From NCBI GenBank assembly GCA_007859835.1, contig SJPJ01000001.1, positions 2,651,257-2,715,256 of the forward strand: 64,000 nt of DNA, read 5' to 3'. Shown in pieces: positions 7,114 to 46,613 of this stretch. Each line of letters begins with the position of its first letter. The stretch's first letter is position 1. The translations under genes were made by a program, and so were the position numbers. The notes beneath the pieces are model-generated. The model was not told where the DNA came from. It saw only the letters and a program-made list of their open reading frames with translations, and made no database searches. This DNA is from Novipirellula herctigrandis. GTDB lineage: Bacteria; Planctomycetota; Planctomycetia; Pirellulales; Pirellulaceae.

Positions 7114-8259
7114 TCAACCGTTCGGCGGGACCTGTCGCAATCGTCGCCCGACTTCCTTGAGCGTCTTGACGTCGTCAGGATGAATCGAACCATCGGGCAA
7201 TGGGCCAGTGTTGAGCAACAAATTCGCATCAATTCCCTGCGCTTTGCGCAGCATTCCCATTACTTGGTCGGCCGTTTTATGTTTGCCATCGTCCGCCTTG
7301 GTGTAGCCCCAACCGTGCGGCTGCAACGTGTCGCAGATTTCCAACGGGACCTCGGACTTGCCTTTCCAATTCCGCTCGGGTGCCTTGAAATCCTCGCTGC
7401 CGATTAGCCCCTGCTTGTACGACACCAAAACTTGCGGTTGGAGCGAATGAATGTGATCGTACAGCTCTTGGCATTTGAATTGAGCCAACTTATCTGGACG
7501 AGATGCAGGGGTTGAAAATCCGTCTAGCCAAATTGCCCCAACGGGACCGTAGTTGGTAAGCAGTTCGGTGACCTGATTCTTCATGAACTCGACGTAAACT
7601 TGCAAGTCGTGTTCGTCGCCATACTTGTAAAACGTTTCCGGCCGATCGTATTTGGGTCGCGCCGAACCACCCCAATCACCGTTATTGGGGGCGTGTGGGT
7701 GTCGCCAATCGCGTCCATGCGAATAGTACAAATAGAAACCGAGTCCCTTTGTAGCACATTGGCCAGCCAGCTCGCCGACCAAATCCCGTTTGGCTGGGCT
7801 ATTGGTGCTTTTGAAATCCGTGTATTTCGAATCGAACAAGCAAAAACTGTCGTGATGCCGTGTCGTAATGTTGATGTACTTCATGCCCGCATCAAGCGCC
7901 AGGTCGGTGATGAAATCGGCATCGAACTTTTCTGCGTTAAAACGGTCAACCAGCTTGGCATATTCGTCGACGCGAATTTTCTCTCTGTACTGAACCCACT
8001 CGTGGCGTCCCAACAGCGAGTAAAGTCCGTAGTGCAGAAACAACCCAAACCCGGCATTGTTGAACCAATCGATCGCAGCCCGGCGAGGGTCTTGCTGGTA
8101 ATGGTCGGCCACGTCCTGCAAATACGACGGGACCGCGGCGGCTGCCTGAGCGGACGACTTGTCTTGGCCCCAGACGCTGGTCGTTCCAAAGATCGAACTG
8201 GATGCGGCTGCGCTGGCCCCTACGACGCTAGCTTGAATGAAATCTCGACGCTTGATCAT
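7114..8259 (-). CDS. Exported GH29 alpha-L-fucosidase (Tat-type signal)
   Basis: A 381-residue fucosidase-type enzyme. The start at 8259 gives a twin-arginine-like leader (IKRRDFIQ followed by an Ala/Ser-rich stretch to SVWGQ); a longer reading to 8376 would overlap the upstream gene. GH29 hallmarks follow: GLFLHYGLYSLLGRHEW, the TTRHHDSFCLF segment, YYSHGRDW, and the nucleophile Asp in GAIWLDGF (D246). It removes terminal alpha-L-fucose by a retaining mechanism. It is short, with only the catalytic barrel and no C-terminal beta-sandwich. It lies 100 nt after a second GH29 gene, so probably in one transcript ending at the hairpin at 7082-7110. Export folded through Tat suggests a periplasmic enzyme. 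Confidence 0.88.
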   Translation of the reverse strand: MIKRRDFIQASVVGASAAASSSIFGTTSVWGQDKSSAQAAAAVPSYLQDVADHYQQDPRRAAIDWFNNAGFGLFLHYGLYSLLGRHEWVQYREKIRVDEYAKLVDRFNAEKFDADFITDLALDAGMKYINITTRHHDSFCLFDSKYTDFKSTNSPAKRDLVGELAGQCATKGLGFYLYYSHGRDWRHPHAPNNGDWGGSARPKYDRPETFYKYGDEHDLQVYVEFMKNQVTELLTNYGPVGAIWLDGFSTPASRPDKLAQFKCQELYDHIHSLQPQVLVSYKQGLIGSEDFKAPERNWKGKSEVPLEICDTLQPHGWGYTKADDGKHKTADQVMGMLRKAQGIDANLLLNTGPLPDGSIHPDDVKTLKEVGRRLRQVPPNG

Positions 8260-8359
8260 CTGACAGACCGCCCTTCGGTTGATGGGTTCGAATGCAATTT
8301 CAATTTGAGCGATATTGCCGTTCGCTAACGACACTCCTATGAGGACGCAGATTGCGATT

Positions 8360-10117
8360 CTACGGTGAGCTTCCAATTCGCTGGAGTTTCAATTGACGAA
8401 GATTCATCGGTTGCCAGTGGTCGGGATCGGGTTTGACTTGAATGCTGCATTGGCCGGATTGGTCGATTTCAAGGGTGCCCAAGGACTTCTCGACATAATT
8501 GCCATAGCCGCCCGTAGACTTCACTTCGGCGGTTTCCGTTTGTCCGGGAAGACCAAACTCAAATCGCGTCTTTTCTTTTTCCACTGACATGATTGCCCGC
8601 ACCTCGTAACGTCCGGGTTGGTTAATGTAGATGCTCCAATCAACCCAAGCGTGAGGGTCAAGCCAATATCCAATGTGGGCAATGTCATCATGGAATCGCA
8701 CTCCGGCTTGTTTGCTGCCTTCGTTGTTGTGAACGTAGGCATTATCGGCGGTCAGAACCAAAGAACCGCTCGAATCCGGCGTGGGCAAATGAATGCCAAC
8801 TTCAAGTTCCCCGTCAATTGAAATAGTGATCACGCTTGCGTAAGGGTCCGGTGCTTCGCCGGGCAAAGTCAATTCGATGCCCAAATCGGTGAGCCTCGTT
8901 TTCACTTCCGTGCCGTGTGCCAAAAGACTGGCTTGCCGCACGTCGTTCTTAATTGCGGGCACCAGGAGTTTTCCGTCACTGGGCCAATCAAATACATGCA
9001 GGTAGAGCATCGTGCCTCCATCGACCGATTTGGCGGTACAACGTCCCCATGCCAATTTGGGAAGTGGGCTTGCCGACGTACCGTAGATCGATTCACTGTT
9101 CACCTTCATCCATTGGCCAATCAACTTCAGTCGCTCGACTGATTGTGGCAACAGATTACCTTCGCCGGTTGGGCTTACATTCAGCAAATAATTCCCGCCT
9201 TTACTAGCAATGTCGACCAAGTTTCGAATCAAAGTGGTTGGCGATTTGAAATCGGTGTCAATCTTTTTGTAGCCCCAACTGCCGCTGATTGGCATGCACA
9301 CTTCCCAGTACTTATCCGCAGGAGCCTGCGGCGGGATTTTGCGTTCAAAGGTCTTATGGTCACCTGGGTAGTCCTTACCTAGACGGTCATTGGTGATCAC
9401 ATCAGGTTGCAGACCTGTGCTGGAATGGAGGCTGTCAAAGGCTTCCTTACTCATGTCGCGAGGAGTATCCCACCAGAAGATTGAAATAGGACCGTACTCG
9501 GTCAACAACTGCTTGATCTCGGGAGCAGCCTTGTCACGAACGTATTGGTCGAAACTGACACGTTGGATCGTCTTGTCCCAATTGTTACCCATTCCACCGG
9601 GATGATGCCAATCTTGGCACTGCGAATAATAGAATCCGAAGCGAATCCCCTGTTCCTGGCAGGCTTCGGCCAGCTCTTTCATAATGTCACGCTTAAACGG
9701 AGTGGCATCAACAACATTGTAGGGGCTGGCCGTGGAGTGAAACATCGAGAATCCATCATGGTGCTTGGCCGTGATGACGAGGTACTTCATTCCCGCTTGT
9801 TTGGCCAACCCGACAAATTCGGCCGCATCAAATTTGACAGGGTTAAATCTCGCTGCGTACTTCTCGTATTCGGCAATTGGGATATTCCCCCTGTTCATCA
9901 TCCACTCAGCACTGTTAGGCAATTCCTTACCTTTGTACTGGCCGCCCGTTACCGAGTAGACTCCCCAGTGAACAAACATACCGAACTTTGCCTCGCGCCA
10001 CCAAGCCATTCGTTCATCGCGGGTCTGCTCGCGAGATTCAGGTTTCTGGGCAAACAACGTGCTCGACACCAGGGCGAGTAAACCGAAGCTAATCAATCGA
10101 AGAATTCGAGTATTCAT
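8360..10117 (-). CDS. Exported GH29 alpha-L-fucosidase with C-terminal domain
   Basis: A 585-residue retaining alpha-L-fucosidase. Signal peptide to about residue 23; barrel from about 35 to 350 with KFGMFVHWGVYSVTGG, ITAKHHDGFSMFHS, GFYYSQCQDWHHP and the nucleophile region ISIFWWDTP (D217); PISGSWGY and NYLLNVSPTGEG follow as is usual. Residues about 380-450 form the family's beta-sandwich, and a further 130-residue beta-rich module (about 455-585, NAYVHNNEGSKQAGVRFH onward) is probably carbohydrate binding. It belongs to the same subgroup as the GH29 at 39150, sharing the W-x-D-T-P nucleophile context. The neighbouring GH29 follows by 100 nt. Confidence 0.92.
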   Translation of the reverse strand: MNTRILRLISFGLLALVSSTLFAQKPESREQTRDERMAWWREAKFGMFVHWGVYSVTGGQYKGKELPNSAEWMMNRGNIPIAEYEKYAARFNPVKFDAAEFVGLAKQAGMKYLVITAKHHDGFSMFHSTASPYNVVDATPFKRDIMKELAEACQEQGIRFGFYYSQCQDWHHPGGMGNNWDKTIQRVSFDQYVRDKAAPEIKQLLTEYGPISIFWWDTPRDMSKEAFDSLHSSTGLQPDVITNDRLGKDYPGDHKTFERKIPPQAPADKYWEVCMPISGSWGYKKIDTDFKSPTTLIRNLVDIASKGGNYLLNVSPTGEGNLLPQSVERLKLIGQWMKVNSESIYGTSASPLPKLAWGRCTAKSVDGGTMLYLHVFDWPSDGKLLVPAIKNDVRQASLLAHGTEVKTRLTDLGIELTLPGEAPDPYASVITISIDGELEVGIHLPTPDSSGSLVLTADNAYVHNNEGSKQAGVRFHDDIAHIGYWLDPHAWVDWSIYINQPGRYEVRAIMSVEKEKTRFEFGLPGQTETAEVKSTGGYGNYVEKSLGTLEIDQSGQCSIQVKPDPDHWQPMNLRQLKLQRIGSSP

Positions 10118-10445
10118 TGAGACCAGTGCAAGCGAGGTATAGGAGTCACGGAACTTCGTCGATCCTAAAGCTTAATTCGTTTCGACAGACCGCCTATCAC
10201 AAAAAGCGACACACGTAAAATGATTTGCGACATCAAGAATCAACCGCATGCAAAGATCAACAGGCATGAAGCGATGGTTGGAATCCAAGTTACAACTGCG
10301 TTATGGAAAACGACAACGCATGGCCAACAAAGTTGGTTGACGAAATCGGTTGACGAAATCGGTTGACAATGCCTTGAAGCAAGCATCTTTTGCGATGGAC
10401 CGCCTATCAAAACTAAGTTCAACGGGATCCGGAGTTGCCACAGAT
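10118..10445. repeat. Spacer with 13-bp tandem and dispersed repeats
   Basis: No gene seen in these 328 nt. It has a tandem repeat of GGTTGACGAAATC (10335-10347, 10348-10360, then a partial copy to 10367) and two exact copies of GACCGCCTATCA (10188-10199 and 10398-10409, 210 nt apart). It separates the oxidoreductase from the two GH29 genes and may hold their promoter. Confidence 0.6.
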
Positions 10446-11576
10446 TCACTGTAGCGTGAATCCAGGAAGTCGCACGATTTCTCCTCCCTTCAGCGCGGAC
10501 TCGTGAGCACACAGGCCGACACAGGTCCAATTCGCCGAGGTCACCGCATTGGGCCATGGATGGCGGTCTTCAAGTAACGCACTGAGAAACTCATGAACCA
10601 TATGGGGATGTGATCCGCCGTGGCCACCGCCCTGAACAAACGATAGATGTTCGCTGTCATGAATCTCTGCTGGCATTGTGAACCGTTGAATGGGCTCAGG
10701 CAGCAGATGTGCGAAATCAGGTACTTCGACCTTTTCTGGGATCTCGTCTTCTGGCTTCTTTGCCGTGTGAATGACGTGTGGCTCGTTCTCGACCAACGTC
10801 CATTCAAAACTCTTCTTTGTTCCATAGACGTCAAAGCTTTCCCGATATTGTCGAGCGACGTCATACAGGAATCGCCAAATGTGTGCGGTCAAGTCTTGGT
10901 CCTTCACCTTCACATGACACGACTCAACAGCGAATCGGTTGCCCGATTTTTCAGCGATATCATCTCTCACTTTGCCGGAGCCAAAGCAACTCACATACTC
11001 TGCGCGGCCATCAATCAGCCCCAGGCATGGACTGACGACATGCGTGGCGTAGTGCATCGGGATCATCCGCTCCCAGTAACTCGGCCAACCGTCCATGTCC
11101 TGCGGATGCGAGGCTGCCAAGTGCTGGATGTCACCCAACTCGCCACGTCGATACATTTCGCGGATAAAAAGAAACTCGCGACTATAGACGACCGTCTCGG
11201 CCATCATGTACTTCAAACCAGTCGCTTGCACGCTCTCGACAACTTGCCGGCATTCATCAATCGTCGTCGCCATCGGCACGGTGCACATCACATGCTTCCC
11301 AGCGTCCAATGCCTTTAGCGACATCGCAGCGTGATCTGGAATCGGACTATTAATATGAACAAAGTCGATATCGGAATCGGCAAGTACGTCATCGTAGTTC
11401 GTGTATCGCTTTTGGATGCCGAACGTATCACCAACCTTGTTCAATTCGGCTTCATTGCGACGGCAGATAGCGGCAACGTTTGCGTTGGGATGTGCCTGAT
11501 AAATCGGAATGAACTCAGCTCCAAAACCGAGTCCGATCATGGCGACGTTTTTGACTTCGCTAACTGACTTGTTCAC
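10446..11576 (-). CDS. Gfo/Idh/MocA-family oxidoreductase lacking the EKP motif
   Basis: A 376-residue NAD(P)-dependent oxidoreductase-like protein without a signal peptide. The N-terminal Rossmann fold shows VAMIGLGFGAEF (nucleotide loop) and VHINSPIPDHAAM; a C-terminal alpha/beta domain follows, ending with the His-rich QGGGHGGSHPHMVHEF segment. The family's normal E-K-P motif, whose lysine takes part in catalysis, is replaced by T99-V100-P101 (HVMCTVPMATT). The start is a GTG, chosen because AGGAG sits 6 nt before it and the next ATG would cut into the nucleotide-binding strand. Members oxidise or epimerise sugars or inositols; the substrate here is unknown, and its place between GH genes suggests a sugar from the same polysaccharide. 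Confidence 0.85.
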   Translation of the reverse strand: MNKSVSEVKNVAMIGLGFGAEFIPIYQAHPNANVAAICRRNEAELNKVGDTFGIQKRYTNYDDVLADSDIDFVHINSPIPDHAAMSLKALDAGKHVMCTVPMATTIDECRQVVESVQATGLKYMMAETVVYSREFLFIREMYRRGELGDIQHLAASHPQDMDGWPSYWERMIPMHYATHVVSPCLGLIDGRAEYVSCFGSGKVRDDIAEKSGNRFAVESCHVKVKDQDLTAHIWRFLYDVARQYRESFDVYGTKKSFEWTLVENEPHVIHTAKKPEDEIPEKVEVPDFAHLLPEPIQRFTMPAEIHDSEHLSFVQGGGHGGSHPHMVHEFLSALLEDRHPWPNAVTSANWTCVGLCAHESALKGGEIVRLPGFTLQ

Positions 11577-11890: not shown

Positions 11891-14800
11891 CTACGTCTCA
11901 AGCATGATCTTCAATATGTCACCGGATGTGATCGTTTGTGATTCTTCGAAGGTGACGAACGCGCGATCGTCTTGAATATTAACAGTGGCTGGTACGTTTA
12001 CTTGCTCCTCGTTCACCGTGACGTTCACCGTGACGTTTACCGTGACCTTTACTGGGTTTGCCTTGGGAAAAGAACCGAACGCGATGCTTTTCAATTGTAG
12101 CTCCCCCCACTTCACGGCCAATTCCGCTTCCATCTTCGACTTGTCACCCCGCTGCGTGAACGCCCCCCAAGCTCCAGCGGCAGTAAAAGCAGATTTAAAA
12201 TTCTCGGGTGACAAGCGAGGCGCAAAGCCGATATGCCCTTTTGGCCCATGATGCTCAAAACCGCATGCCGCTTGAAAGGCGCCGTAACTTGCCATCGAGC
12301 GAGAGTAGTGATCGCTGCACTCGATTTCGTTGTACGGGTTGCGCAGTGCTGCGTTGTAGCGGTCGTGAATGGCACGAGAAATCGCCAACCCGTTTTGCAG
12401 TAGGTCTGGCTCGGTGACCCCTTCCCAGATCATATGAGCGGCGGCCTGCCATTCGAAGCCGCTCATGCACTCGTTGAAGTACATGTATTGCCAATGACCA
12501 ATGAATTCGGGATTCTGCCCGCCCTTGGGCCAAGTGCACATCAGTAACCCCGCATCACCAGCGGTTGCGTACCAACGGCCGAGCTTGAAATGATCGCGAA
12601 ACGGCCCCACATCGGGAACGAAGTTGTATCGGTACAACGCGCGCAGCGCGCTAACTTGATTTTCTTGGTTGAACAGTCGCCCGAGCCCGACCCAATGAGC
12701 CCAAGTTTGGCCAAACACTTGGTCGATGTAGCATCCTGGTCCAACACCAATCTTATCGCTGTGTTGCGGATCCTCAATCTGAAAGAAATACTCGCCATCG
12801 TACAAATCAAGAATCGACTTGGCACCACGCTCCGCGATGGTACGACAACGTTTGGCGAATACGTCATCCCCCATCTCTATCGCCATTGCTTCACTAGCAC
12901 GTAGTGTCGCTAGATAGAGTGACGCCAGAAAAGACACCTTACCGTACCAACTTGCGTCGAGCGTGTTGGCCTGGGCATCTTCAAGGATACCGTCGTCGTT
13001 TCCATCGCGACGGATCATGAATTCGACAGCTTGTTTCACCTTAGGCCAGATACTTCGAAGAAACGAATCATCAACGCTCATTTGGTGTTCACGATAAACG
13101 CCAAGAATGCGACCACAGTGGCCGTCGTCGGCTGCGTGGTTAGAGCGATTGAGTGATGCTCGATGACCGATGCCACCGTCCTTGTGAAAACCAATCCCGA
13201 AATCGACTCGTTCGCGTGTATCGCGTTCGACCTCCGGAAACAGACGCCCCGGCGCCTGTGCGTAATGCCAAACGTGTGTGCAAGTCCCGGGGCAACAGCC
13301 AATGCCCTCCCACGCCCAAAACCGCCCGTCTTTGAAACGGTAGCAAGTGGTCGTGGCAAGGATCGACGTGTTGGCCATCGTGCGATCGAGGAACCAATAG
13401 GGAAGCGTAGAGTCATACCAGGTTTCCACCCAACTTCTTGTCTGCCCAGCGAGACGCTTGAAGTTATCGACAACGTATCCTGTAACCTCGGTCGCCGAGT
13501 CAAATCGCGATGCGTAGTGATGTCCGACCAACTCGTTGCCCACGCCGCGACCACGGAAGTTCGGGAAATGCCAGGCAATCGCAAAGGTGAACTCCGATTC
13601 TTCTCCTGGCCCGAGCGTCACCGTCCGGCCAACTTCACCTTCCAAATCCGCTGACAAACCACCGACCGCCTCCGGCCCGTCCTGTTCACGCGAGGCGTGC
13701 GCGCGAACTTCGTCGGCTGATCCGATCAGCGCCATCGTCATCGTTCCAAAGTCGCGTAAAGCATCGAGATCGCCGGCGTTTTCTGGGGATGTGTCGGTAA
13801 AGACAATATCGTCCACGCCGATGTTACCCCATGCACCGGTTTCGTTGTCAACGATTTGTAACCTTGCCTGTTGGCCCTCGTACTCGGAAACGTTTATCGA
13901 CGACAACGACATCTGGTTCTGGCTGCTTCCAGTAACCGAAGCCACAACCGTGTCATCGACAACCAAGTTGACACACGTGCGTCGAATGTGCGCACCGCCA
14001 CCTATCCGCAATACGATGAACCGTCGTTCGATCGTGAATGGCTTGCTGATCAATCTGCCCGTGGCCGCGTCTTTACTTTGCACGCCGTCGCCCGGGGCTG
14101 AGGCGTGCGAATTCACTACACGAGTCCCCTTACCTACGACTTCACCCTGGTAGTCGGGGATATCCGCTATCTTGGCCGGCCCATCCCCAAACGCGGATCC
14201 GACGACCTTCCAACCCTCGTAAGTTTCTTTCTCGAAGTCATCGAAAAGGATGTCCTGGCGGGTCGTTTGCTCCTGTTGCTTGACGGCTCGCGCGGAACAC
14301 TCTACTGCCGAAAAACCCTCGCGACGAACGACGCGGTTACGTCGTTGCCCAGCCGGGGCATGTATTGCGGTATCAAGGCAAACTGCGTTTTGCAGATGAC
14401 CGAAAACACCAATCTCCAATGGCTCCGCCCCCTCGTTTTTCACCGTGTAATTCATCACCGTCACCGGCAACGAAGAGTCGTCAGCATTCAATGGGATAAA
14501 GGGCGAGAAAGCCTCAAGCCGTGCGTTAAAAGGCAACTCAGCATCGGCGTACGACACAATGGCTCGTGGATACTCGCCGCGGAATGTAACATTTGCAAAA
14601 CCCGTTTGGTCAAGCGAAATATCCTTGCCACCAACACGGACAACGAAGCCTTGGCGAAATGGTGAAAATGGTTTGGCTGGCTCGATGTAGTTCGCGCCGC
14701 CTCGTGTGTTAAGTTTTTCTCCAAGATGAACCACTTCTCGAGGGGCGATGCCTTCCTGGTCACGGTTAAAGATGTCCCATAACCAAAGTCGACCATCGCC

Positions 14801-37627: not shown

Positions 37628-37682
37628 GGTGACAAATTCTTGCAACTTTTGAATTCAAGCGTTCACAACGATCGCTTGATCA

Positions 37683-39095
37683 TCATTTCATGTTGTTTCG
37701 CAATGTGGAGAAATTCTTTGCGTTGGGTTTGGCTGGGAGCGTTGACTTCCACTCGGAAAGTTCCTTCGTTAGCTGTACCACCACTTCCGGATGAGTCTGT
37801 TTTAGATCCGTCTTCTCATAGGAGTCCGCAACGATGTCATAAAGTTCCACATAACTACCGTCATGGTTCGCGACAAGTTTCCAATTTTGGTGCACCACAC
37901 AGTAGGAAACCCAGTGATAGGGTTGTGTCTTCGCGGCTGGCCAACGCGATGCCATTTTCCAAAACAGCGGTTTGTCGCGTCCAAAGCTCTCTTTTCCCTG
38001 AAGCTCTGCCACCAAACTCACTCCATCCGCTTGGTATCCCTGCGGAAGCTCCACACCGGCGACATCACAAAACGTTGGCAATAGGTCGACCGCCGAAATC
38101 ATTAGTTTTTTGTTGACCCCATTTGCCGCGATCTTTCCTGGCCACCGCGCGATGAAGGGAACGTTGATGCCTCCTTCAAACAAGGCTGCTTTGTGCCCTT
38201 TGCGTCCAGCGGTTACGCCCTTGGAAGCCCCGACTCCAAAACCAGCGCCCGTTGCCGTGTCGTAGCTCAATTCGCAAGGCGTTGGTTTTGCAGCACGCGC
38301 AGGGCCATTATCCGAACTAAAAATCACCAGCGTGTTGTCGGTCAAACCTAAACGATCGAGCGCATCAAGAACCTCCCCGATTCGATCATCCGCGTGTGAA
38401 AGCACAGACGCGTAAATCTCGTCAGCCTGTTCAAGCCCGCTGTCTCGAAATTGCCATCGATATTTCGGAATAACGTGAAATGGCGTGTGTGGTTCGTGAA
38501 TCCACAAGTTGATAAAGAACGGCTGGCCCGCTTGGTGACTTTTCTCAATGAAGCTAATCGCGTTGGCCGCGTCCTCGTGAACTGGCATCTGTTCACCAGA
38601 ACAATTAAATGCACCGTATGTGTCGTAGCCGTACCTAGCAGGTGACGGCGAATCGGGAATCATGTCGTTCGACAAATGCCATTTTCCAAAGTGAGCCGTG
38701 GCATAGCCAGCCGACTGCATCAACCTTGGAATCGTGACCACACTCGTATCGAGCCAATCGGGCATATTGCGTTTGGCGTTGCTAGGCACCCATGCAAAGT
38801 GCCCGTCGATATTGTAGCGTGCCGGAAAATGCCCCGTCATTACCGCCGTGCGACTTGGCGAACAAACACCACTGGCGACCGTGAACCGATGGAAATCCGT
38901 TCCCTCACGAGCGAGCTTGTCGATGTTGGGCGTCCTTACATATGGATGCCCGTGACAACTAAGATCACCCCATCCCCAATCATCAGCGAAGATGAACAAA
39001 ACATTTGGCTTTACCGAACTCGTTTCAGCCGCGACGGAGATCGCATGAGGGCATGCCCACAACACGGCTGCAATGAATAAGTTTATGCGATTCAT
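37683..39095 (-). CDS. Exported S1-family sulfatase
   Basis: A 470-residue sulfatase. Signal peptide to about residue 23; D38-D39 in IFADDWGWGDLSCHG; maturation motif C78-S-P-S-R with TAVMTGHFPARYNIDGH; HFGKWHLSNDM; and IFSSDNGPARAA as distal metal segment. It lies 54 nt after the GH29 gene and 55 nt before the truncated GH95-like gene, all in the same direction, so it is part of the fucI-led run. The GHFPARYNIDGHF extension is shared with many planctomycete sulfatases next to fucosidase genes, which fits action on sulfated fucose, but the position is not known. Confidence 0.93.
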   Translation of the reverse strand: MNRINLFIAAVLWACPHAISVAAETSSVKPNVLFIFADDWGWGDLSCHGHPYVRTPNIDKLAREGTDFHRFTVASGVCSPSRTAVMTGHFPARYNIDGHFAWVPSNAKRNMPDWLDTSVVTIPRLMQSAGYATAHFGKWHLSNDMIPDSPSPARYGYDTYGAFNCSGEQMPVHEDAANAISFIEKSHQAGQPFFINLWIHEPHTPFHVIPKYRWQFRDSGLEQADEIYASVLSHADDRIGEVLDALDRLGLTDNTLVIFSSDNGPARAAKPTPCELSYDTATGAGFGVGASKGVTAGRKGHKAALFEGGINVPFIARWPGKIAANGVNKKLMISAVDLLPTFCDVAGVELPQGYQADGVSLVAELQGKESFGRDKPLFWKMASRWPAAKTQPYHWVSYCVVHQNWKLVANHDGSYVELYDIVADSYEKTDLKQTHPEVVVQLTKELSEWKSTLPAKPNAKNFSTLRNNMK

Positions 39096-39149
39096 AAGGG
39101 ATGCCCATCAACCTGTTCTTGAGGGAATTTATCTTGCCAACAAATCTTG

Positions 39150-40928
39150 TTAGTGCATCGGTGTAAATTCAATCGCCTTCAGACTTGCCGACTCAACTTC
39201 ACCCTCTAAACACTTCACCGATATGTTGTAGCGTCCGGCTTTCGGAAAGTTTATCCAACCGATCGGAAACGTTTGATAATTGTGCGACGAGTTTTGTTGA
39301 TTTTGAATCGCTTGGCCACCTTCGATCGCGACACCCCAGACCAAGCGACCATTTCCGGAATACGTGAGTTCAACATTGTAATCCCCTGGCTGGAGCACAT
39401 CGATTTCCCACGATGCGGCCCCCCCTTTTTCAAGGCCATGAACATGGGTGACGCCTTTCCACTCGCCGAATTTTTCCATCCAACGTTTTTCGGATTTCTC
39501 GGCATTGTCGACTGACGCGAATTCGGCAAGCACCTCCGTCGCCATATTGGGATCAAGAGCCCAAACAGGATCGACTTCGGGTTCGGATTCCAAGTTCACT
39601 TGAATCACCGAGACCAATTTTTCCGGTGCGCGAGGCGGTACATTCAACGCAATCCATTGCCCTGCTTTTTCCCAGGTTACCGACTCGCCTTCCTCAACTC
39701 CAAGCAATTCGGCGGACGCGATTTGGGTTTTCAGATTCGGCAGATACAATTTGCCGGAAGTCGGCCAATCAAATACGCAAAGGAAAAGAGTATTGTCCTT
39801 GCGTGTTACATCGCCCCACGGCAAGACATGTTGCCAAGGCGATGCATCGGTGTTGTAGACGACTTGCGGATAACGTCGCACCCACTCACCTGCCTGAGTC
39901 AGGGTTTTTTCAGCACGCTCGGGAACCGATCCATCGCCGCGCGGACCTATATTCAACATGTAAGTTCCACCTCGTCCAACGCATGCAATCAGTCGGCTCA
40001 GAATTTCCTTTGGTGACTTCCAATATTCGTCATACCAAGCGTACGCCCATGAATCGTTCGTCGTATCGACACTTTCCCACATACCTTCGACGTTGTGTCG
40101 CGGCACTTCCATGTCGCCGAGAGTCTGATAATCACCGAGTCCATGCCCGGCACGACCAGAGACCAAGGCTCGAGGTTGATTTTTGTGAACGACTTCGACG
40201 AGTTGCTCGACGTAGTGTTTGGGCATCTTGCCAGGCGTATCGAACCAAACCAGTTCGATCGGTCCGTACTCGGTCGTGATCTCGTTGACCTGCGGAAGAC
40301 ACTTTTTCACGAAGTAATCATCAAACGTCGCGCGGTTGCCCTCCTCGTCCTTGCCTGGACCATTGCCACCGCCGGGAAACGTCCAGTCTTGATTGTGTGA
40401 GTAGTAGAAACCAAACCCCAGCCCCGCTTCACGACACGCAGCAGCGAGTTCCTTCATCGGATCTTTTTTCCACGGCGTGGCATCGACGATGTTGAAGTCA
40501 CATGCTTTGGAATGATACATCGCAAAGCCGTCATGGTGCTTAGCGGTAATGACGATGTACTTCATACCGGCCTCTTTCGCGATGCGTGCGATTTCGTGCG
40601 CATCGAAATTGACGGGATTAAATTTGCCAGCCAATTGTTTGTATTGGTCGATCGGAATACCGGCCATATTCTTGTTCATGATCCATTCGCCGATGCCGTA
40701 GTAGGTTTTTCCATCGACTTCATTCCCCAACAGCGAATACAGGCCCCAATGGATGAACATCGCATAGTTGCCTTCGTTAAACAGTTGCCCACGTGTGGCG
40801 TCCTCTACTCGCAACTTGACCACTGCATCGCCCCAAAGTTTGTCCATCGACTCCTGTGCCCGGGACAAGGATGGGGCGCAGGCAATCATGATGATGAAAC
40901 AGATGCAGATCTTGACGTGACGTTTCAT
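39150..40928 (-). CDS. Exported GH29 alpha-L-fucosidase
   Basis: A 592-residue fucosidase. The ATG at 40928 is followed at once by a signal peptide (KICICFIIMIACAPSLSRAQ); an upstream reading to 41015 adds a non-signal leader. Barrel motifs: YAMFIHWGLYSLLGNE, ITAKHHDGFAMYHSKACDF, GFYYSHNQDWTFPGG, and nucleophile region IELVWFDTPG (D230). GGTYMLNIGPRGDGSVP follows. Beyond the family's beta-sandwich (about 370-470) a 130-residue beta module (LEKGGAASWEIDVLQPG onward) is probably carbohydrate binding. Same branch as the GH29 at 8360. It sits 99 nt after the tandem aldolase, the point where the run switches from cytoplasmic catabolic to exported enzymes. Confidence 0.93.
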   Translation of the reverse strand: MKRHVKICICFIIMIACAPSLSRAQESMDKLWGDAVVKLRVEDATRGQLFNEGNYAMFIHWGLYSLLGNEVDGKTYYGIGEWIMNKNMAGIPIDQYKQLAGKFNPVNFDAHEIARIAKEAGMKYIVITAKHHDGFAMYHSKACDFNIVDATPWKKDPMKELAAACREAGLGFGFYYSHNQDWTFPGGGNGPGKDEEGNRATFDDYFVKKCLPQVNEITTEYGPIELVWFDTPGKMPKHYVEQLVEVVHKNQPRALVSGRAGHGLGDYQTLGDMEVPRHNVEGMWESVDTTNDSWAYAWYDEYWKSPKEILSRLIACVGRGGTYMLNIGPRGDGSVPERAEKTLTQAGEWVRRYPQVVYNTDASPWQHVLPWGDVTRKDNTLFLCVFDWPTSGKLYLPNLKTQIASAELLGVEEGESVTWEKAGQWIALNVPPRAPEKLVSVIQVNLESEPEVDPVWALDPNMATEVLAEFASVDNAEKSEKRWMEKFGEWKGVTHVHGLEKGGAASWEIDVLQPGDYNVELTYSGNGRLVWGVAIEGGQAIQNQQNSSHNYQTFPIGWINFPKAGRYNISVKCLEGEVESASLKAIEFTPMH

Positions 40929-41027
40929 TAGTCGATTCCTATTGGCAAATATTCGTGCAATAATAAATGTGCAGGCAAAGGCAACGGGTTCACAACGGCG
41001 TGAGCCCGCTCCCACCGGCTCTACACC

Positions 41028-42320
41028 CTAGTTCAAATTGAACGCAGAGCGAAGCTCATCGATCACAGCCTTGGGCATCACCGACACATGGCCAATGACA
41101 GCAGCGTTGATCACGGCTTCGGCAGTTGATTCCAGCACTTCCAGGCGATCAAACACATCGAGCACGCTTGAGCCAGTCACCAACACTCCATCATTTTCCA
41201 AAATGGCAGCAGGCGATGCTGCCGAAACGTAGTCTGCGATCTTGCCATCGTTTTGGTACTGCACTCCGTAGGGAACACAATCGACGTCTCGCAAAAACAC
41301 GTAGCTTTCGGGAATCGTTCGCGTATCAAACGGGACGTCAGTGACACTGAACGCAGTCGCATTGACCGGATGAGCGAAAACGATCGCCTGCACATCGGGG
41401 TGTTTCTGGTAGATGGCTTGATGCGCGAGAACGGCGCGGCTTGCCTTCTTTCCCGATTCACGGCGACCGTGACTGACAAGAACAAGATCATCAACCGTCA
41501 AGGTTTCACGGTCTTGCTGTGTGGGAGTGATCAAGAACGAATCGCCATCCACTCTCGCTGAAAAACTGCCTTCGGTGCTGATCAACAATCGTTGTCGGCA
41601 ACCTCGGCACAGAAACTCGCGTAGTTGCCTGCGAAGTTCACGTTCGTTCTGTGTGGCGACTGGTGGATCAACCGAGACAAGGTCAACACTGCGCTGGGCA
41701 GCTTGTTGCAACTGTTCGTCGTTGAGATACCGCACCTTGCCAAGCTGGCTCGCCTTAATCAATGTCTTGCCTGCAAACTCAAACGCCTCGAACCGTTCAA
41801 ACGCACGAGCCAAGGTTTCGCCACCAACAACGACACCATGATTTTCAAGAATCACACTGTCGCACCCTGCGGCATATGTTGCGGCAATGTTCTTTCCTAA
41901 TTGCTCGCTTCCGGGGCAGGCGTAGGGTGCAAAGCCGACTTGACCACTGATCGTATGGGTTTGATGAAACAACCTAGTGTTGGGTTTCGATTGACAAATA
42001 CTGAAAGCGACCAAGGCTACCGGATGAGCATGAACAATTGCCCGAATGTCAGGCCTTACATCATAGATCGCTTTATGGAACGGAAACTCAGACGACGGGG
42101 GATGAGGCCCATCGACCGTACCATCCGGTTTAACGCAAACGATGTCTCGGCGAGTCAGATTGCCTTTGTCTACCCGAGCGGGCGAAATCCAAATATCACC
42201 AGCTTCATCTCGTATGGAAAGATTGCCGCCGGAAGTTGTGGTCATGCGATAGCCATAGATCCGCCCCATCGTTTGCATGATCTCATCACGAGGATGAATC
42301 AGGGATCGTTGTGACGGCAT
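41028..42320 (-). CDS. Tandem class II aldolase with a degenerate second domain
   Basis: A 430-residue cytoplasmic protein of two class II aldolase/adducin domains. Start taken at the ATG 42320; a TTG at 42377 is the only longer option. The first domain (about 8-205) is intact: substrate loop TSGGNLSIR, general base E78 in [11 protein letters not shown], zinc ligands H97 and H99 (HAHP) and H161 (ENHGV). The second (about 215-430) keeps the fold pattern and H317, but the base is Ala (A296), the first ligand Phe (FAHP, F315) and the last Asp (ENDGV, D377), so it cannot bind zinc normally. Class II aldolases cleave L-fuculose-1-phosphate to DHAP and L-lactaldehyde; this protein may do that or have become an accessory or decarboxylase-like enzyme. 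The kinase gene ends 63 nt upstream. Confidence 0.85.
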
Positions 42321-42383
42321 GGAATTCTCGCTGCTGCTAGGAGACTCGGATTGAATCGTTTTGGAGATTGCGTTCAAAAACGT

Positions 42384-43859
42384 TTACATACGCAGTCCCG
42401 CAAAACGTTGCCGTGCATTTCCCCACTCCGCTGAGTTTTCGGACTTGAAAGTCTCAATCGAAAACGAATCTCGCACCGACGCACGAAGCTCTGCCAAAGA
42501 CGAAAGATCTCCCATCGAAATTGCTTGAATCAACAGGTTGCCAATCGCAGTGGCCTCGACAGGTCCGGCAAACACGGATCGCCCCGTTGCATTGGCGGCG
42601 AATTGGTTGAGTAAACGGCTTTGGCTGCCCCCACCAACGATGTGCAATTTGGAAATCGTCCGACCAGTTAACTCTTGGATCGAATCGAGTTTGTCTGCGT
42701 ATAACAGCGCCAAACTTTCAAAGATACAACGGGCGAATTGGCCCGGTGTCTCCGGTGCCGGTTGCTCCGTTTCACGACAGAAATCGGCAATCGTCGACGG
42801 CATGTCCGTGGGACTCATGAAACGGGCGTCGTCGGGATGAATGATCGATCGGAACGGCTCTGACTTTTCGGCCAAATCATTAATCTGGGTGTAGTCCAAC
42901 TTCACTCCCTGCCGCAACCACGCGCGACGCGACTCTTGTAGTAACCACAGACCCACGATGTTTTTCAGAAACCGCGTCGTCCCGCCGAAACCAGCTTCGT
43001 TGGTGAAGTTTTGTTCCAAAACCTGCTCGTTAATCAGCGGCTCGGGAAGTTCGACGCCAATCAGCGACCAAGTGCCCGAACTGAGGTAAGCCCAATCCTC
43101 GCCTGGTTCGGCCGGAACCGCAGCGACCGCGGCGCCAGTGTCGTGAGAACACGTGGCGATCGTCTGGACGCCCCGCAAACCCGTGTTCAACTCGACTTCC
43201 TCCGTTAAAGGCCCCAACCGCGTACCCGAATCAACAAGCTTAGGAAAGAGCCGTTTCGGCAGGTGGAATTGCTCGATCAATTCGGTCGACCATTGCCGCG
43301 CAACCGGATTATACATCTGAGTCGTGCTTGCTAAACTCACTTCCGCACTCGCGACGCCACAGAACAAATAGTTCAGATAGTCAGCGATCGTAAGAAACTG
43401 GTCAGCGATTCCGAGGACATCCGGATTTTCTTGAACATCGGCGATCAAATGATAGAGCGTATTGATCGTCATGAATTGAATACCGGTCTCTGCAAAAATC
43501 TTTTCGCGTCCGACTTGTTCGAGTGCCATCTCATAGGGCTTCGCCGTCCGCGAATCACGATACTGATAGGGCAGCGCCACCATCGGTTGCCGCTCGTTGA
43601 ACAGCACGTAATCAACGCCCCATGAGTCGACGCTCAGGGAAGAGACTGAAACACCGCGAGCGGCGATTTTCTGCAGCCCCGCCTTGAGTTCTTCGAAGAT
43701 GCCAAGGACGTTCCAGCGGAGTGAACCTTGGATACGCGAGGCTCCATTGGGAAAGCGATGAATTTCCTCTAGAACCACACGGCCATCGACTAACGTGCCC
43801 AGAATCACGCGCCCGCTCTCCGCACCGAGATCACAGGCGATATAATTACGACTTGTCAT
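42384..43859 (-). CDS. RhaB-like FGGY kinase, probable L-fuculokinase
   Basis: A 491-residue cytoplasmic FGGY-family sugar kinase. N-terminal ATP/phosphate loop CDLGAESGRVILG, SVDSWGVDYVLF, the sugar-site region SHDTGAAVAAVPA, SSGTWSLIGVE, and the C-terminal nucleotide loop VGGGSQSRLLNQF are those of rhamnulokinases (RhaB), not of enterobacterial FucK. In the same operon as fucI, the most sensible substrate is L-fuculose, giving L-fuculose-1-phosphate; use of L-rhamnulose as well is possible. Its ATG overlaps the TGA of the upstream aldolase (ATGA at 43856-43859), typical translational coupling. Confidence 0.88.
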   Translation of the reverse strand: MTSRNYIACDLGAESGRVILGTLVDGRVVLEEIHRFPNGASRIQGSLRWNVLGIFEELKAGLQKIAARGVSVSSLSVDSWGVDYVLFNERQPMVALPYQYRDSRTAKPYEMALEQVGREKIFAETGIQFMTINTLYHLIADVQENPDVLGIADQFLTIADYLNYLFCGVASAEVSLASTTQMYNPVARQWSTELIEQFHLPKRLFPKLVDSGTRLGPLTEEVELNTGLRGVQTIATCSHDTGAAVAAVPAEPGEDWAYLSSGTWSLIGVELPEPLINEQVLEQNFTNEAGFGGTTRFLKNIVGLWLLQESRRAWLRQGVKLDYTQINDLAEKSEPFRSIIHPDDARFMSPTDMPSTIADFCRETEQPAPETPGQFARCIFESLALLYADKLDSIQELTGRTISKLHIVGGGSQSRLLNQFAANATGRSVFAGPVEATAIGNLLIQAISMGDLSSLAELRASVRDSFSIETFKSENSAEWGNARQRFAGLRM

Positions 43860-44614
43860 AGTTTCAATGCTCGTTGGCGATAGTGTTCGTCAATACGGTT
43901 CGCAATTCGCTCGACATCAATGTCACTCATAAACACAGGGCCTCCCATCGCAGCGGCTCCGACGAAGATCTCGGCCGCTTTATGAGCCATCAACATCGCC
44001 GCCTTGACTGCACCGGGTGTTTTTCCCAGTGTAATCAGACCATGATTTTCGAGCAGGATAACACGCGGTGCGGCACCAAGTTCATCGATAAAGGCACCCG
44101 TCTTGTCACGGATTACCTGCGATAGTTGCAAACCAGGGTCAGTGTAAGGGACGAACACCGAACGACAACCGCAACACACAATTTCATCCGGGAACAACCG
44201 CCCGGTGGCAAACTCAGAGGCCAACGGTGAACACAAAATTTGGTTCACTGCCACACTATGCGTATGCCCAACAAATTCGACGCCTGGCAACGACAACAAA
44301 TAGGCATGAAAAAGTGTTTCAACGGATGGTTTTTTTGCACTCGAGTCAACGCGACAAGCGAGAAGCTGATCTTCGATTTGTTGATCGCTCAAATCGGTTT
44401 GATCAAGCATCGAAAGCAGCGATTCAAACCGGCAAACGACCGCGTCGTCTTCACCGAGGGTTTGCAAAGAGCTACCGCTAGCTTTGACAAAGAAAGTCTC
44501 GTTGTCAATTTTTGCCGAAGTGTTACCCTCGCCAAGTATCGCCAATTGCCGGCGTTCCTCTCCAAGGAAGTGAGACAACTCTAACATGGCATGAAGAGCA
44601 TCATGTTGGTTCAT
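43856..44614 (-). CDS. Class II aldolase, probable L-fuculose-1-phosphate aldolase
   Basis: A 252-residue cytoplasmic class II aldolase. GEGNTSAK forms the phosphate loop, E99 (SVETLFHAYL) is the probable base and H117, H119 (GHTHS) and H191 (ENHGL) the zinc ligands; all are present. The style (GEGNTSAKI, ENHGLITLGKT) resembles the aldolase half of rhamnulose-phosphate aldolase/dehydrogenase fusions but here stands alone. It should cut L-fuculose-1-phosphate to DHAP and L-lactaldehyde. The kinase overlaps by 4 nt downstream, and fucI lies 187 nt upstream behind a tandem repeat. A second, two-domain aldolase follows in the same operon, so the locus has two candidates for this step. Confidence 0.85.
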   Translation of the reverse strand: MNQHDALHAMLELSHFLGEERRQLAILGEGNTSAKIDNETFFVKASGSSLQTLGEDDAVVCRFESLLSMLDQTDLSDQQIEDQLLACRVDSSAKKPSVETLFHAYLLSLPGVEFVGHTHSVAVNQILCSPLASEFATGRLFPDEIVCCGCRSVFVPYTDPGLQLSQVIRDKTGAFIDELGAAPRVILLENHGLITLGKTPGAVKAAMLMAHKAAEIFVGAAAMGGPVFMSDIDVERIANRIDEHYRQRALKL

Positions 44615-44693
44615 GAATAGACCTTATTTTGAGGGGCGGCCATTTTTTGAATGACCATCACAATTGGAGGGACGGCCATCATTCGCCGCCTGC

Positions 44694-44753
44694 CCAGTGA
44701 ACAACAGCCAGTGAACAACAGCCAGTGAACAACAGCCAGTGAACAACAGCCAG
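44694..44753. repeat. 14-bp tandem repeat, four perfect copies
   Basis: CCAGTGAACAACAG occurs four times without change (44694-44749) plus CCAG. It lies inside the 187-nt spacer between fucI and the aldolase gene, so it is in the leader of the downstream message. No spacers between copies, so it is not a CRISPR array. Confidence 0.95.
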
Positions 44754-44801
44754 CAAATCAACAGGCCACAGAGCCCGCCTTAACGTTCTTACTATTCCAA
44801 A

Positions 44802-46613
44802 CTACACGCGACCGTATAACGGGCCGAAGTTTTGGCAGGCGCGGAAGTCGGCGGATTCTAAATCAGCCGTGCCAAACGCATTCCAAGCACTCGGGCGGAA
44901 CACTCGATCCGCGTCAACATTGTGCATATAGACCGGAATCCGAAGGATCGATGCCAACGTAATAAACAAATGGCCCACATGACCAGCCGTCATCACACAA
45001 TGATTTGCTCCCCAGTGGTTCATCACTTCGTAAGTGGACGTGAACGCACCGCGTCCAGTCACCGTCGGTGCGAACCATGTCGTCGGCCAAGTCGGATTGG
45101 TCCGCAAATCAAGTGCCTTGTGCACCTCTCCCGGCAATTCAACCGTATGCCCTTCGGCAATCTGCAGGGCCGGGCCTAACCCGTCGACCAAATTGATTCG
45201 AGTCATCGTCGCTGGCATACCACCTCGCGTACAGAATCTCGAGCTCATTCCGCCACCTGGAAAATACTCGGTCATTGACGGGTGCCATGTCGTTGCCTTC
45301 AGACACTTTTCGAGTTCTTCGTCAGTGATTTCCCAAAATGGCTTCATCGTCGGCGATCCGTCAGCAGCAGTCTGCTGGCCGGTGCCATCCAACGCAGCGG
45401 AACCTGAATTGATCAGGTGCAACAATCCATCATTCGCAAAACCCTCAAGCTCGTAACCGTCACATGCTGACGCAACTGCATCGGGGCTCCAGTAAGTTCG
45501 CAGATCGGCAAACACCTGAGCCGAGTTCGTAAGCAAATGCCCAAACAGCATCGTGGCAGCGTTGAGCCCGTCGTTCTCGGTTGCAACGATATACGGAGCC
45601 CGTTTGCCGTTCCAATCAAAAGAGGTATTGAGGATCGCTTCAAGAAAATCACCATTCGGAAAATGATCCGTCCATTGACGCTGACCTTGAAAGCCCGACG
45701 CTATCGCTTGGTGTCCGTGAGCCTGTTCCTTGAGTCCCATTTCGGCAAGCTTCGGGTTTCCAACCATCAAGTCCCGCGCGATCAAGGCCATCTTTACACT
45801 ATCAGACCATTCGCTATCGAGCTGTTCGCGAGAGCGTGCATGATCTTCGCCGTTGAAGTCGTCGCCCTCGGGGCAATTCTCTTTGACCCAAGCGAGTGCT
45901 GTTTCATATTCGGCTTGGTCGAATTGGCCTTTGTTCATTCGGCCAATAAATTCGCTCATGTCGATGTCTTCGACCCGCATACCGAGCCACTTTTCCCAGA
46001 GGGAATAGTCGACCATCGAACCAGCAATGCCCATCGATGTTCCGCCCATCGACAAGTAAGCTTTGCCGCGCATCAGCGCGACCGCCAAACCACAGCGAAC
46101 GAAGTCCAAAATCTTGCCTTGCACGTCCGCTGGCATGTTCGCATCGCCTGCCTCTTGAACGTCGTGCCCATAGATCCCGAATGCCGGGATACCCTTTTGC
46201 GTGTGACCCGCCAACACTGCCGCCAGATAGACAGCGCCAGGGCGTTCGGTTCCGTTGAACCCGAACACCGCCTTGGGACGCAGCGGGTCCATATCCATTG
46301 TTTCGGATCCGTAGCACCAACATGGTGTCACGGTTAGCGACACCCCGACATTTTCACGCCGAAACTTGTCGTCACATGCTGCAACCTCTGCGACACCACC
46401 AATGCAGGTATCGGCGATCACGCACTCAACGGGATCACCATTGGGATAACGGATGCTTTCGGAAACAAGCGTGGCAACGCGTCGAGCCAAATTCATCGTT
46501 TGATCTTCGAGCGATTCACGGACACCGCCAAGTCGACCGTCGATGGTCGGCCGGATGCCAATCTTGGGAAGGCTATTTTTCCAAACGGTCGAAGAAGGGT
46601 GTTGTGACTTCAT
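44802..46613 (-). CDS. fucI: L-fucose isomerase
   Basis: A 603-residue cytoplasmic ketol isomerase that converts L-fucose to L-fuculose (often also D-arabinose to D-ribulose). Length and sequence fit FucI throughout: [18 protein letters not shown] at the N-terminus, [17 protein letters not shown], metal ligands E346 in ATENDGLNA and D370 in [10 protein letters not shown], and the [18 protein letters not shown] segment carrying the third ligand region. It is the first gene of the minus-strand run and is divergent from a XylR-type regulator 207 nt away, the classic arrangement for a sugar-inducible operon. The kinase and aldolases follow downstream. Confidence 0.97.

Follow-up and report, generated by a model that had tools for sequence, protein, structure and literature searches.

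The locus at positions 7114-46613 of the window (the whole 64,000-nucleotide stretch of DNA analysed) of Novipirellula herctigrandis (Pirellulaceae) consists of 21 reading frames, all of which lie on the minus strand according to the reading-frame listing, Pfam and translation. The features of the locus and its head are as follows.

7114-8376, minus strand: GH29a, alpha-L-fucosidase with a twin-arginine leader, likely start at residue 41 (Pfam)
8360-10117, minus strand: GH29b, alpha-L-fucosidase with a CBM35-like tail (Pfam)
10446-11576, minus strand: Gfo/Idh/MocA oxidoreductase (MocA), lacking an export-type start (Pfam)
11891-15124, minus strand: GH116-like protein with a twin-arginine leader (Pfam)
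15511-17193, minus strand: S1a, sulfatase; nearest solved chains 7oze, 6s20 and the S1_15A entry 9bas
17423-18622, minus strand: GHL15 glycosidase-like protein (Pfam)
18660-20180, minus strand: S1b, sulfatase; nearest solved chains 7oze, 6s20 and 9s7x, with the S1_15 entries 9bas/9bau also high
20183-22624, minus strand: protein with DUF6250 and a beta-helix, residues 352-801 homologous to the fucoidan lyase FdlA
22645-26688, minus strand: GH95F, 1347 aa, GH95 (about residues 1-797) fused to a GHL6/GHL10-like domain (about 791-1347)
26692-29091, minus strand: GH95 (Pfam)
29361-30380, minus strand: BD-FAE type esterase (Pfam)
30377-32572, minus strand: GH29c, alpha-L-fucosidase (Pfam)
32627-34177, minus strand: U516, weakly GH43-like protein with an export-type start
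34482-34769 (approximate ends), minus strand: remnant of a fifth S1 sulfatase, in the 682-bp gap (three-frame translation)
34860-37070, minus strand: S1c, sulfatase with EF hands; nearest solved chain the S1_16 entry 9fo1
37070-37645, minus strand: T191, truncated N-terminal remnant of a GH95-like protein
37683-39095, minus strand: S1d, sulfatase; nearest solved chains 7stt, 6prm and the S1_16 entry 9fo1
39150-41015, minus strand: GH29d, alpha-L-fucosidase, likely start an internal ATG at residue 30; closest solved chains 9rzx/9rzy
41028-42377, minus strand: tandem class II aldolase, two Aldolase_II domains, the first FucA-like
42384-43859, minus strand: FGGY sugar kinase, rhamnulokinase-like (Pfam and family models)
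43856-44614, minus strand: ALD2, class II aldolase; closest models the aldolase part of bifunctional RhaD-ADH
44694-44749, strand not applicable: four tandem 14-bp repeats (CCAGTGAACAACAG) in the gap after fucI
44802-46613, minus strand: fucI, L-fucose isomerase (Pfam PF07881/07882/02952)
46821-48017, plus strand: XylR-type regulator (PBP1_XylR, Peripla_BP_3 and an AraC-type HTH), divergent from fucI (Pfam)

The preliminary description had read the locus as a co-oriented, tightly packed set of genes behind a divergent XylR-type regulator, and this picture held up well. Pfam and translation recovered every class it named (fucI, two class II aldolases, a kinase, four GH29, two GH95, four sulfatases and an esterase), the common orientation extends to all 21 frames, some neighbours overlap (by 4, 4 and 1 nt) or lie just 2 and 3 nt apart, and the regulator gene lies 207 bp from fucI. 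The GH116 and GHL15 proteins, the beta-helix protein, the weakly GH43-like protein and the Gfo/Idh/MocA protein complete the gene set (Pfam). As described, the locus shows no SusC or SusD: the Pfam scan found neither of them, nor any TonB-receptor family, among the 36 reading frames of the window, and the adjacent SusC/SusD pair that marks a Bacteroidota-type polysaccharide utilisation locus is missing from these frames. All four intact PF00884 sulfatases carry the Cys-x-Pro-x-Arg signature (CTPSR, CTPTR, CAPSR and CSPSR in translation), and the fifth-sulfatase remnant lacks the signature cysteine. This remnant is one of three scars in the locus, together with the GH95 fusion and T191, a truncated GH95-like frame that was rejected as a small gene. 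GH95F is a fusion relative to a same-genus species; its halves are separate genes in genome G317, where the second gene also has a GH28 half.

A single 39-kb transcript is unlikely, because six intergenic gaps exceed 220 bp (328, 314, 386, 229, 269 and 682 bp) and a further gap of 187 bp directly follows fucI; the idea was rejected on the six gaps and the internal operator pairs described below. Terminator and sigma-70 scans of 28900-47000 gave no signal, since the counts were near or below those of shuffled sequence (22 sites against 20.5 and 7 against 12.9, respectively).

The head of the locus would supply a pathway from L-fucose to dihydroxyacetone phosphate and lactaldehyde by way of FucI, the FGGY kinase and the class II aldolases. 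The isomerase of the FucI-FucK-FucA operon is present with its three Pfam domains, and the sequences of both ALD2 (HxH and the ENHG histidine) and the first domain of the tandem aldolase have the zinc histidines expected of a class II aldolase. In that first domain, whose nearest solved chain is FucA 4c24, all three zinc histidines are present in 48 of 48 aligned sequences; the second domain lacks two of the three in all 48, and its third position is histidine in 23. The kinase counts against the fucose reading, scoring 496 bits with the rhamnulokinase model (under its cut-off of 528) against 121 bits with the fuculokinase model. This kinase and the closeness of ALD2 to RhaD-ADH aldolase are what might be expected if the head served rhamnose rather than fucose, as is the position of the tandem aldolase beside apparent rhamnose genes in Bacteroidota (labels assigned by reading the sequences), a position that also told against regarding this aldolase as fucose-specific. 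Such a role is nevertheless very improbable, given the complete FucI, the fucosidase neighbours, the FucA-like first domain and a permease, labelled FucP-like by sequence and position, that 6 of 28 relatives carry no more than 300 bp from fucI. The tandem aldolase is full-length in 42 of 248 genomes of the class among the matches listed (two with an internal stop), and its fucose-specificity was rejected also because just 5 of 80 named loci, many of them cut by contig ends, contain fucI as well. An orthologue of the fucose permease is absent from the locus itself, which counts against the fucose-regulon reading; an unlinked fucose permease locus (L178) has no operator pair, and the route of transport is presumptive.

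A pointer to the substrate is the beta-helix protein at 20183-22624, whose similarity to FdlA (E 1.6e-40) extends across the 450 residues of the homologous domain. It keeps five of the seven residues essential in FdlA (PMC9410043, consulted in part), namely His176, Phe179, Glu236, Arg240 and the proposed acid Tyr242, but not the full set of D137, K141, H176, F179, E236, R240 and Y242, as the proposed base Lys141 is replaced by Ile and Asp137 by Asn. It is accordingly treated as a homologue of FdlA and not filed as a member of its group. The homology makes the label 'fucoidan-type' more than a guess, and the substrate class put forward in the preliminary description is fairly well supported. 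The polymer may instead be another sulfated fucosylated glycan, such as a diatom exopolymer, animal fucosylated chondroitin or mucin, rather than brown-algal fucoidan. GH29, GH95 and S1 enzymes serve on many fucosylated glycans, and the solved sulfatases nearest to S1a and S1b include a GalNAc-6-O-sulfatase, those nearest to S1c and S1d carrageenan and GalNAc-6-sulfate sulfatases. Verrucomicrobiota have also been proposed, in the part of PMC8857213 consulted, to attack diatom polymers with comparable sets. Against this stands the FdlA homologue within the run, FdlA being an enzyme that cleaves sulfated fucoglucuronomannan (PMC9410043, the same portion). We regard another glycan as unlikely but keep it in play because two of the seven essential FdlA residues differ.

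Control of the locus can be approached through the DNA between the divergent genes. A half-site model was trained only on the regulator/fucI intergenic DNA of 12 relatives, leaving out the window and L035; three sites were forced per sequence, so that a few are poor (G258 at 6.5). Applied to both strands of the window, it placed its four top matches (17293, 46693, 10215 and 46779, all on the plus strand) in the DNA between genes, either within the locus or at its head, 17293 being the best of the whole 64 kb; four half-sites score at least 16, against 0.56 expected per simulated window. They form the following candidate sites.

46758-46798, plus strand: candidate operator pair at the fucI/XylR head, half-sites 4.9 and 16.4, 21 bp apart, pair score 21.3
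46693-46712, plus strand: third candidate half-site, score 19.3, 65 bp from the head pair
17272-17312, plus strand: candidate internal operator pair before S1a, half-sites 6.3 and 20.9, pair score 27.3
10194-10234, plus strand: candidate internal operator pair before GH29b, half-sites 9.2 and 18.6, pair score 27.8

Each pair has one weak partner (9.2, 6.3 or 4.9), yet the pair scores of 27.8, 27.3 and 21.3 compare with maxima of 17.6 in 200 simulated strands and 13.7 in 1,296,143 bases from 75 other loci, a control that omits L039 and L033-L036 (scanned apart, L039 has no pair and L033-L036 one each). A lone half-site carries less weight than a pair. The third half-site overlaps TATTAT, the -10-like element of a promoter match directed at fucI (46723-46695, minus strand), and 9 of the 12 training sequences have a third site 65-69 bp away from their pair. 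Two marks of a XylR/AraC regulon are seen: the regulator joins a sugar-binding domain to an AraC HTH and lies divergent from a predicted target (Pfam), and paired direct repeats stand before several predicted targets (model scan). The repetition of this putative switch at fucI, S1a and GH29b suggests one regulator acting over several parts of the locus, and the regulatory logic of the preliminary description is fairly well supported by the operator pairs and by linkage. In the open-licence literature searched, a scope outside which Perez-Cruz 2024 falls, an operator for planctomycete fucose genes was not found.

Full-length fucI is present in 29 of 199 genomes of the family, counting that of the window and excluding G393 and G405, which have fragments only. 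In the other 28, a XylR orthologue lies within 20 kb of fucI in 15 and ALD2 in 16 (tblastn). Named relatives that share this head include Rhodopirellula maiorica (L035) and R. rubra (L036). Internal pairs recur before GH29b in G406, before S1d in G281 and G256, and before a sulfatase-sulfatase-U516-ORF-GH29b run in G334 and G258. No pair scoring at least 17.6 was found in the stretches fetched from 11 of the 28 (G410, G404, G398, G270, G391, G369, G350, G399, G294, G308 and G336).

The repeats might belong to a different XylR-family paralogue or a global regulator, in which case a shared site would not signify a fucose signal. The genome encodes 15 near-full-length XylR-like regulators, this one counted (the others are at most 42% identical, and two have an internal stop), so a paralogue could share the site; further pairs precede other sulfatase genes, the stretches of G277 and G230 contain pairs but lack a XylR orthologue, and the opposite holds in G308, where the orthologue is present and a pair is not. 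The two nonetheless travel together: a pair is present in 15 of the 16 relatives with a XylR orthologue in the stretch (the 15 linked cases and G362, which is cut by the stretch end) against 2 of the 12 without, a co-occurrence that is partly built in because 12 of the 16 supplied training sites. Control by another regulator therefore seems rather improbable, and the divergent XylR-type protein is the preferred candidate for binding these repeats.

The 28 relatives, which as related genomes are not independent samples, were searched by tblastn for orthologues (55% identity or higher) lying no further than 20 kb from fucI; GH29d was linked in 13, GH29b in 10, S1d in 7 (4 on the same strand), GH29a in 5, U516 in 4, S1a in 3, and S1b and the esterase in one each. 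For GH29c, GH95, GH95F, the FdlA-like gene, GHL15, GH116 and MocA the count was 0 of 28. The locus may therefore be a mosaic, in which the XylR regulon comprises just the fuc head, S1a and GH29b-GH29a, perhaps with S1d, S1c and U516, whilst the middle block (GH29c to GHL15) and the GH116 and MocA genes were assembled in this lineage by insertion and serve a different substrate or signal. A strong operator pair is missing from the middle block, no pair was found in the 682, 386, 314, 269 and 187-bp gaps, and genes of the GH95/GH95F type are remote from fucI in G317, G277, G370 and G406, in clusters (about 140 kb) with no pair scoring at least 17.6. The case for unity rests on the common strand and the spacing of -4 to 54 nt over GH95-GH95F-FdlA-like-S1b-GHL15 and U516-GH29c-esterase, on GH95F-type orthologues of at least 67% identity in 10 of 29 fucI genomes against 0 of 170 others, and on weaker homologues near fucI (GHL15 at 41-45% in G230 and G290, GH95 at 33-35% in G290). 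The first of these runs is headed by the 269-bp gap, which holds no pair, and this tempers the point from spacing. A mosaic is a real possibility, if not the reading we favour, and the middle block, GH116 and MocA are possible rather than supported members of the XylR regulon.

U516 is found in 26 of 29 fucI genomes against 23 of 170 others; some of these 49 genomes, G268, G276 and G301 among them, have weak or fragmentary matches. Its GH43 match is under the curated Pfam cut-off (17.9 bits for the window member against 32.2); GH43 matches were obtained for 17 of 24 members at E of 5 or less, the best being 5.4e-6, and no solved relative was found with the 24-sequence profile at E of 10 or less. 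Assignment by structure was rejected, the single-sequence model having a meaningless pLDDT of 35.

Lactaldehyde would probably be consumed in a microcompartment. The window contains no BMC-domain gene, and the genome has four BMC-domain matches elsewhere, at C1:3150k and C1:3778k. About 0.45 Mb from the locus two BMC-domain genes lie together with an Aldolase_II gene, and from these genes the region is taken to be a PVM locus encoding the shell; the microcompartment region (L176) has no operator pair and one half-site of 16.9 inside a gene. The operator pattern occurs at eight places outside the window, with model pair scores of at least 24 in four, 18.5 in one and 15.0 in another, and no pair above 10 in L174 and L175. 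One candidate operator pair elsewhere in the genome precedes a run of genes on one strand, the first two encoding a PduS-like electron-transfer protein and a PduT-like double-BMC shell protein, and those beyond a gap of 451 bp a sulfatase and an esterase-like protein. It is tempting, though doubtful as a whole, to suppose both that XylR runs a genome-wide sulfated-fucan regulon including the pair at the PduS run and that U516 is a new GH43-related, fucan-active family. If so, one signal would switch both the outer attack on the polymer and electron flow in the fucose microcompartment, and nearly every fucI genome of the family would carry this new enzyme.

Taken together, the locus of this marine planctomycete is probably a XylR-controlled fucose regulon for the degradation of a sulfated fucose-containing polysaccharide, most likely fucoidan, and the earlier proposal of an inducible fucoidan-type regulon without SusC/SusD is partly supported. 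The FdlA-like protein would plausibly make an endo-acting first cut in the polymer, and the exported sulfatases, the esterase, the GH29 and GH95 fucosidases and the accessory glycosidases, if their specificities are as predicted, would then release L-fucose. The XylR-type protein may sense the sugar and bind, presumably as an activator rather than a repressor, the 21-bp direct repeats of the type AATAAYnATTTGCGWCA before fucI, S1a and GH29b, and a common operator would allow separate transcripts to respond together. Fucoidan is a polymer thought to store carbon, and for planctomycetes with hundreds of sulfatases the organisation and switching of the attack on it are poorly known. The candidate operator turns an enzyme cluster into a predicted regulon that is open to footprinting and genome scanning, and could match sulfatases encoded elsewhere with a substrate. 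Among the enzymes, the FdlA-like protein and the U516 family that accompanies fucI stand out as concrete candidates.

Several known systems resemble parts of this arrangement. The E. coli regulators AraC and XylR combine a sugar-binding domain with an AraC HTH and use direct-repeat half-sites about 21 bp apart. The divergent gene, paired direct repeats and third distant half-site seen here follow that pattern, but the predicted targets include exported polysaccharide enzymes. Clusters of fucosidases and sulfatases free of SusC/SusD have reportedly been described for Verrucomicrobiota in the Lentimonas paper. FdlA of Flavobacterium sp. SA-0082 (7XZ7-7XZF) shares the aligned 450-residue beta-helix region and five key residues with the protein at 20183-22624, which differs in having a DUF6250 domain in front and in its replacements of Lys141 and Asp137. 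Planctomycete fucoidan gene clusters are already in print (Perez-Cruz et al. 2024, as relayed in part of the review PMC12078418); those of marine Planctomycetota match the present locus in phylum, polymer class and clustering of enzymes, and the end products of fucose are given there as lactate and 1,2-propanediol, with part of the route inside a microcompartment. The planctomycete PVM microcompartment for fucose and rhamnose, as outlined in part of PMC4207490, shares the sugar, the phylum and a class II aldolase as signature enzyme, whereas the N. herctigrandis window is without a BMC-domain gene and region L176 without an operator pair. Related Verrucomicrobiota, in the portion of PMC8857213 consulted, are reported to lack SusC/SusD and to group GH29 enzymes, sulfatases and carboxylesterases in a similar way, with fucose isomerase detected in metaproteomes. 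The N. herctigrandis cluster is characterised by holding fucI and a divergent regulator, with the candidate operator recurring inside it.

The best reading of the locus is a fucoidan-type regulon with several transcripts and one XylR protein as predicted regulator, in which a conserved fucose head forms the core and further genes have been added in this lineage. The gene row of the preliminary description is real: ORF listing, Pfam and translation recover every gene class it named, all sharing a single strand; the regulator is transcribed divergently. The co-orientation stands, but not as one tight operon, since gaps from 187 up to 682 bp part the tight runs. The window lies on a contig of 8.58 Mb, and the whole genome, 9.5 Mb in size, has at least 150 sulfatase matches and 47 GH29 matches, 46 of which exceed the cut-off. 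One of its proteins has its best named hits in Rhodopirellula and other Pirellulaceae, which marks the host as a planctomycete, probably of this family. Judged by simple hydropathy rather than by a signal-peptide program, 16 of the 21 reading frames have an export-type start (hydrophobic stretch or twin-arginine leader), which suggests export of their products. By the same measure, fucI, the kinase, both aldolases and the MocA-type protein have none (a chance RRxL in the aldolase ALD2 being disregarded). Two neighbouring features are four perfect 14-bp tandem repeats, possibly variable in length, between fucI and the aldolase gene (44694-44749), and a 1304-aa PQQ/BamB-like protein with Laminin_G_3 directly after the regulator in the same orientation (48144-52058).

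The operator evidence comes from a 20-bp half-site model trained on 12 relatives, the window and one near-duplicate excluded, using the intergenic DNA that separates the regulator from the gene divergent to it, either fucI or one for a FucP-like permease. These sequences typically carry two direct repeats (consensus about AATAAYnATTTGCGWCA) at 21 bp spacing close to the regulator, with a third half-site 65-69 bp away in 9 of the 12. When both strands were scanned, the top four half-sites of the window, at 17293 (20.9), 46693 (19.3), 10215 (18.6) and 46779 (16.4), were all on the plus strand, each in an intergenic gap within the locus or at its head. Four half-sites score at least 16, against 0.56 expected per simulated window; 1.30 Mb of real DNA also held four. 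Three pairs were found, each with one weak half-site, while the best control pair scored 17.6 among 200 simulated strands and 13.7 among 75 loci (1,296,143 bases) collected for another gene.

Putative operator pairs in the window
10194, score 27.8, 77 bp before the listed start of fucosidase gene GH29b
17272, score 27.3, 79 bp before the listed start of sulfatase gene S1a
46758, score 21.3, fucI/regulator head

Pairs away from the head also occur in relatives: before GH29b (G406), before the sulfatase gene S1d (G281 and G256), before another gene (G320), twice in G230 and once, weakly, in G317. In G334 and G258 a pair precedes a run made up of two sulfatase genes, U516, an unknown ORF and GH29b. 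Among the 28 relatives with full-length fucI, from a 199-genome sample, 17 have a pair of at least 17.6 somewhere in the stretch, 12 of these being sources of training sites; the other 11 have none within the stretch scanned.

Linkage was scored in the same 28 relatives as an orthologue (at least 55% identity and half the length) within 20 kb of fucI, in stretches of 9 to 60 kb, mostly downstream and some cut off by contig ends. ALD2 is linked in 16, the regulator in 15, GH29d in 13, GH29b in 10, the kinase in 9, the tandem aldolase in 8, S1d in 7 (4 on the same strand), FucP in 6, GH29a in 5, U516 in 4, S1a in 3, S1c in 2, and S1b and the esterase in 1 each. By these limits GH29c, GH95, the GH95 fusion, the FdlA-like gene, GHL15, GH116, MocA and T191 are linked in none. 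Thus the internal pairs precede S1a and GH29b, two genes with orthologues close to fucI in some relatives as well; the middle block, for the most part, is peculiar to this lineage. U516 (32627-34177), weakly GH43-like and without solved relatives, is strongly tied to fucI across the family, being present in 26 of 29 fucI genomes versus 23 of 170 others (Fisher 5e-16, kinship ignored).

The locus also bears gene remnants and a gene fusion. T191 (37070-37645) matches, over about residues 11-157, just the early part of far longer proteins (53-62% identity in the best rows), one of them GH95-like with F5/8C and a U516-like end. Within the 682-bp gap lies the beginning of an additional sulfatase gene, cut short and without the signature Cys. 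In the 1347-aa fusion (22645-26688) GH95 is joined in frame to a GHL-type domain. G317, of the same genus, keeps the parts as two genes, one of 800 aa (70%) and a 1002-aa GH28-GHL protein whose residues 449-999 correspond to the GHL part at 76% identity, consistent with a fusion by deletion of the GH28-like half. In G317 a 1489-aa GH95-like protein also has U516-type sequence at its C-terminal end.

For the sugar pathway, FucI is clear from Pfam. The roles of 'fuculose kinase' and 'fuculose aldolase' are read from gene neighbours, because family model comparison finds the kinase rhamnulokinase-like and ALD2 RhaD-like. The tandem aldolase (41028-42377) has two full aldolase folds in its predicted structure (pLDDT 91), single FucA chains spanning about half of it. 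In all 48 sequences of an alignment that reaches from planctomycetes to Bacteroidota, domain 1 keeps zinc histidines H116, H118 and H180. Domain 2 never has His at two of the three zinc positions (at one of these, D396, 46 sequences have Asp and 2 have Asn) and has it at the third in 23. A fused active/degenerate pair is a design common to both groups.

As to the polymer, residues 352-801 of the beta-helix protein at 20183-22624 align to the fucoidan lyase FdlA (E 1.6e-40), which cleaves sulfated fucoglucuronomannan and whose activity is abolished by mutation of seven residues (PMC9410043). Placed by counting along the alignment, His176, Phe179, Glu236, Arg240 and Tyr242 are retained, while Asp137 is Asn and Lys141, FdlA's proposed base, is Ile; the protein is therefore classed as an FdlA homologue with a putative lyase reaction. 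Two solved chains, 9rzx (754 bits) and 9rzy (724 bits), are very closely related to GH29d. The solved sulfatases nearest S1a and S1b form a group with S1_15 entries among its members; the nearest to S1c is the S1_16 entry 9fo1, and those nearest to S1d are 7stt, 6prm and 9fo1.

The spaced pattern, one mismatch permitted, occurs at nine places genome-wide, one of them in the window (reversed control, one). The model rates four of the eight outside places strong and two weak (18.5 and 15.0), and does not support the other two.

Strong pairs outside the window
L169, score 29.7, before a gene pair for an 857-aa PEP-CTERM and a 705-aa glycosidase-core protein
L171, score 25.6, before a sulfatase with 64% identity to S1c
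L168, score 25.0, before PduS-like/PduT-like genes, with a sulfatase after 451 bp
L170, score 24.0, before two sulfatases

The L168 assignment is less certain, since the pair lies 425 bp upstream of the listed PduS-like start. The PduS-like and PduT-like (double BMC) genes there (L168:8434-10795; about 3778.4-3780.8k of the window's contig) are followed on the same strand by sulfatase, esterase-like, MocA-type and DUF5703 genes, far from the remaining BMC genes at 3150k; BMC-domain genes are located outside the window. The permease orthologue is on another contig, with no pair in the stretch scanned. Because the genome encodes 15 near-full-length XylR-like regulators, the outside sites may or may not answer to the regulator of the locus. 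One XylR-like gene (C1:7869265) is directly preceded by a similar half-site (16.5). That a single fucose-responsive XylR commands a genome-wide sulfated-fucan regulon including the PduS/PduT run, with U516 as a new GH43-related fucan-active family, is rather unlikely, and made slightly more so by the 451-bp gap behind PduS/PduT and by the model rating no more than four of the eight places outside the window as strong.

Clusters broadly of this type are already described in papers on planctomycetes (PMC12078418) and Verrucomicrobiota (PMC8857213); to these the present analysis adds evidence for operator sites, an FdlA homologue and the association of U516 with fucI.
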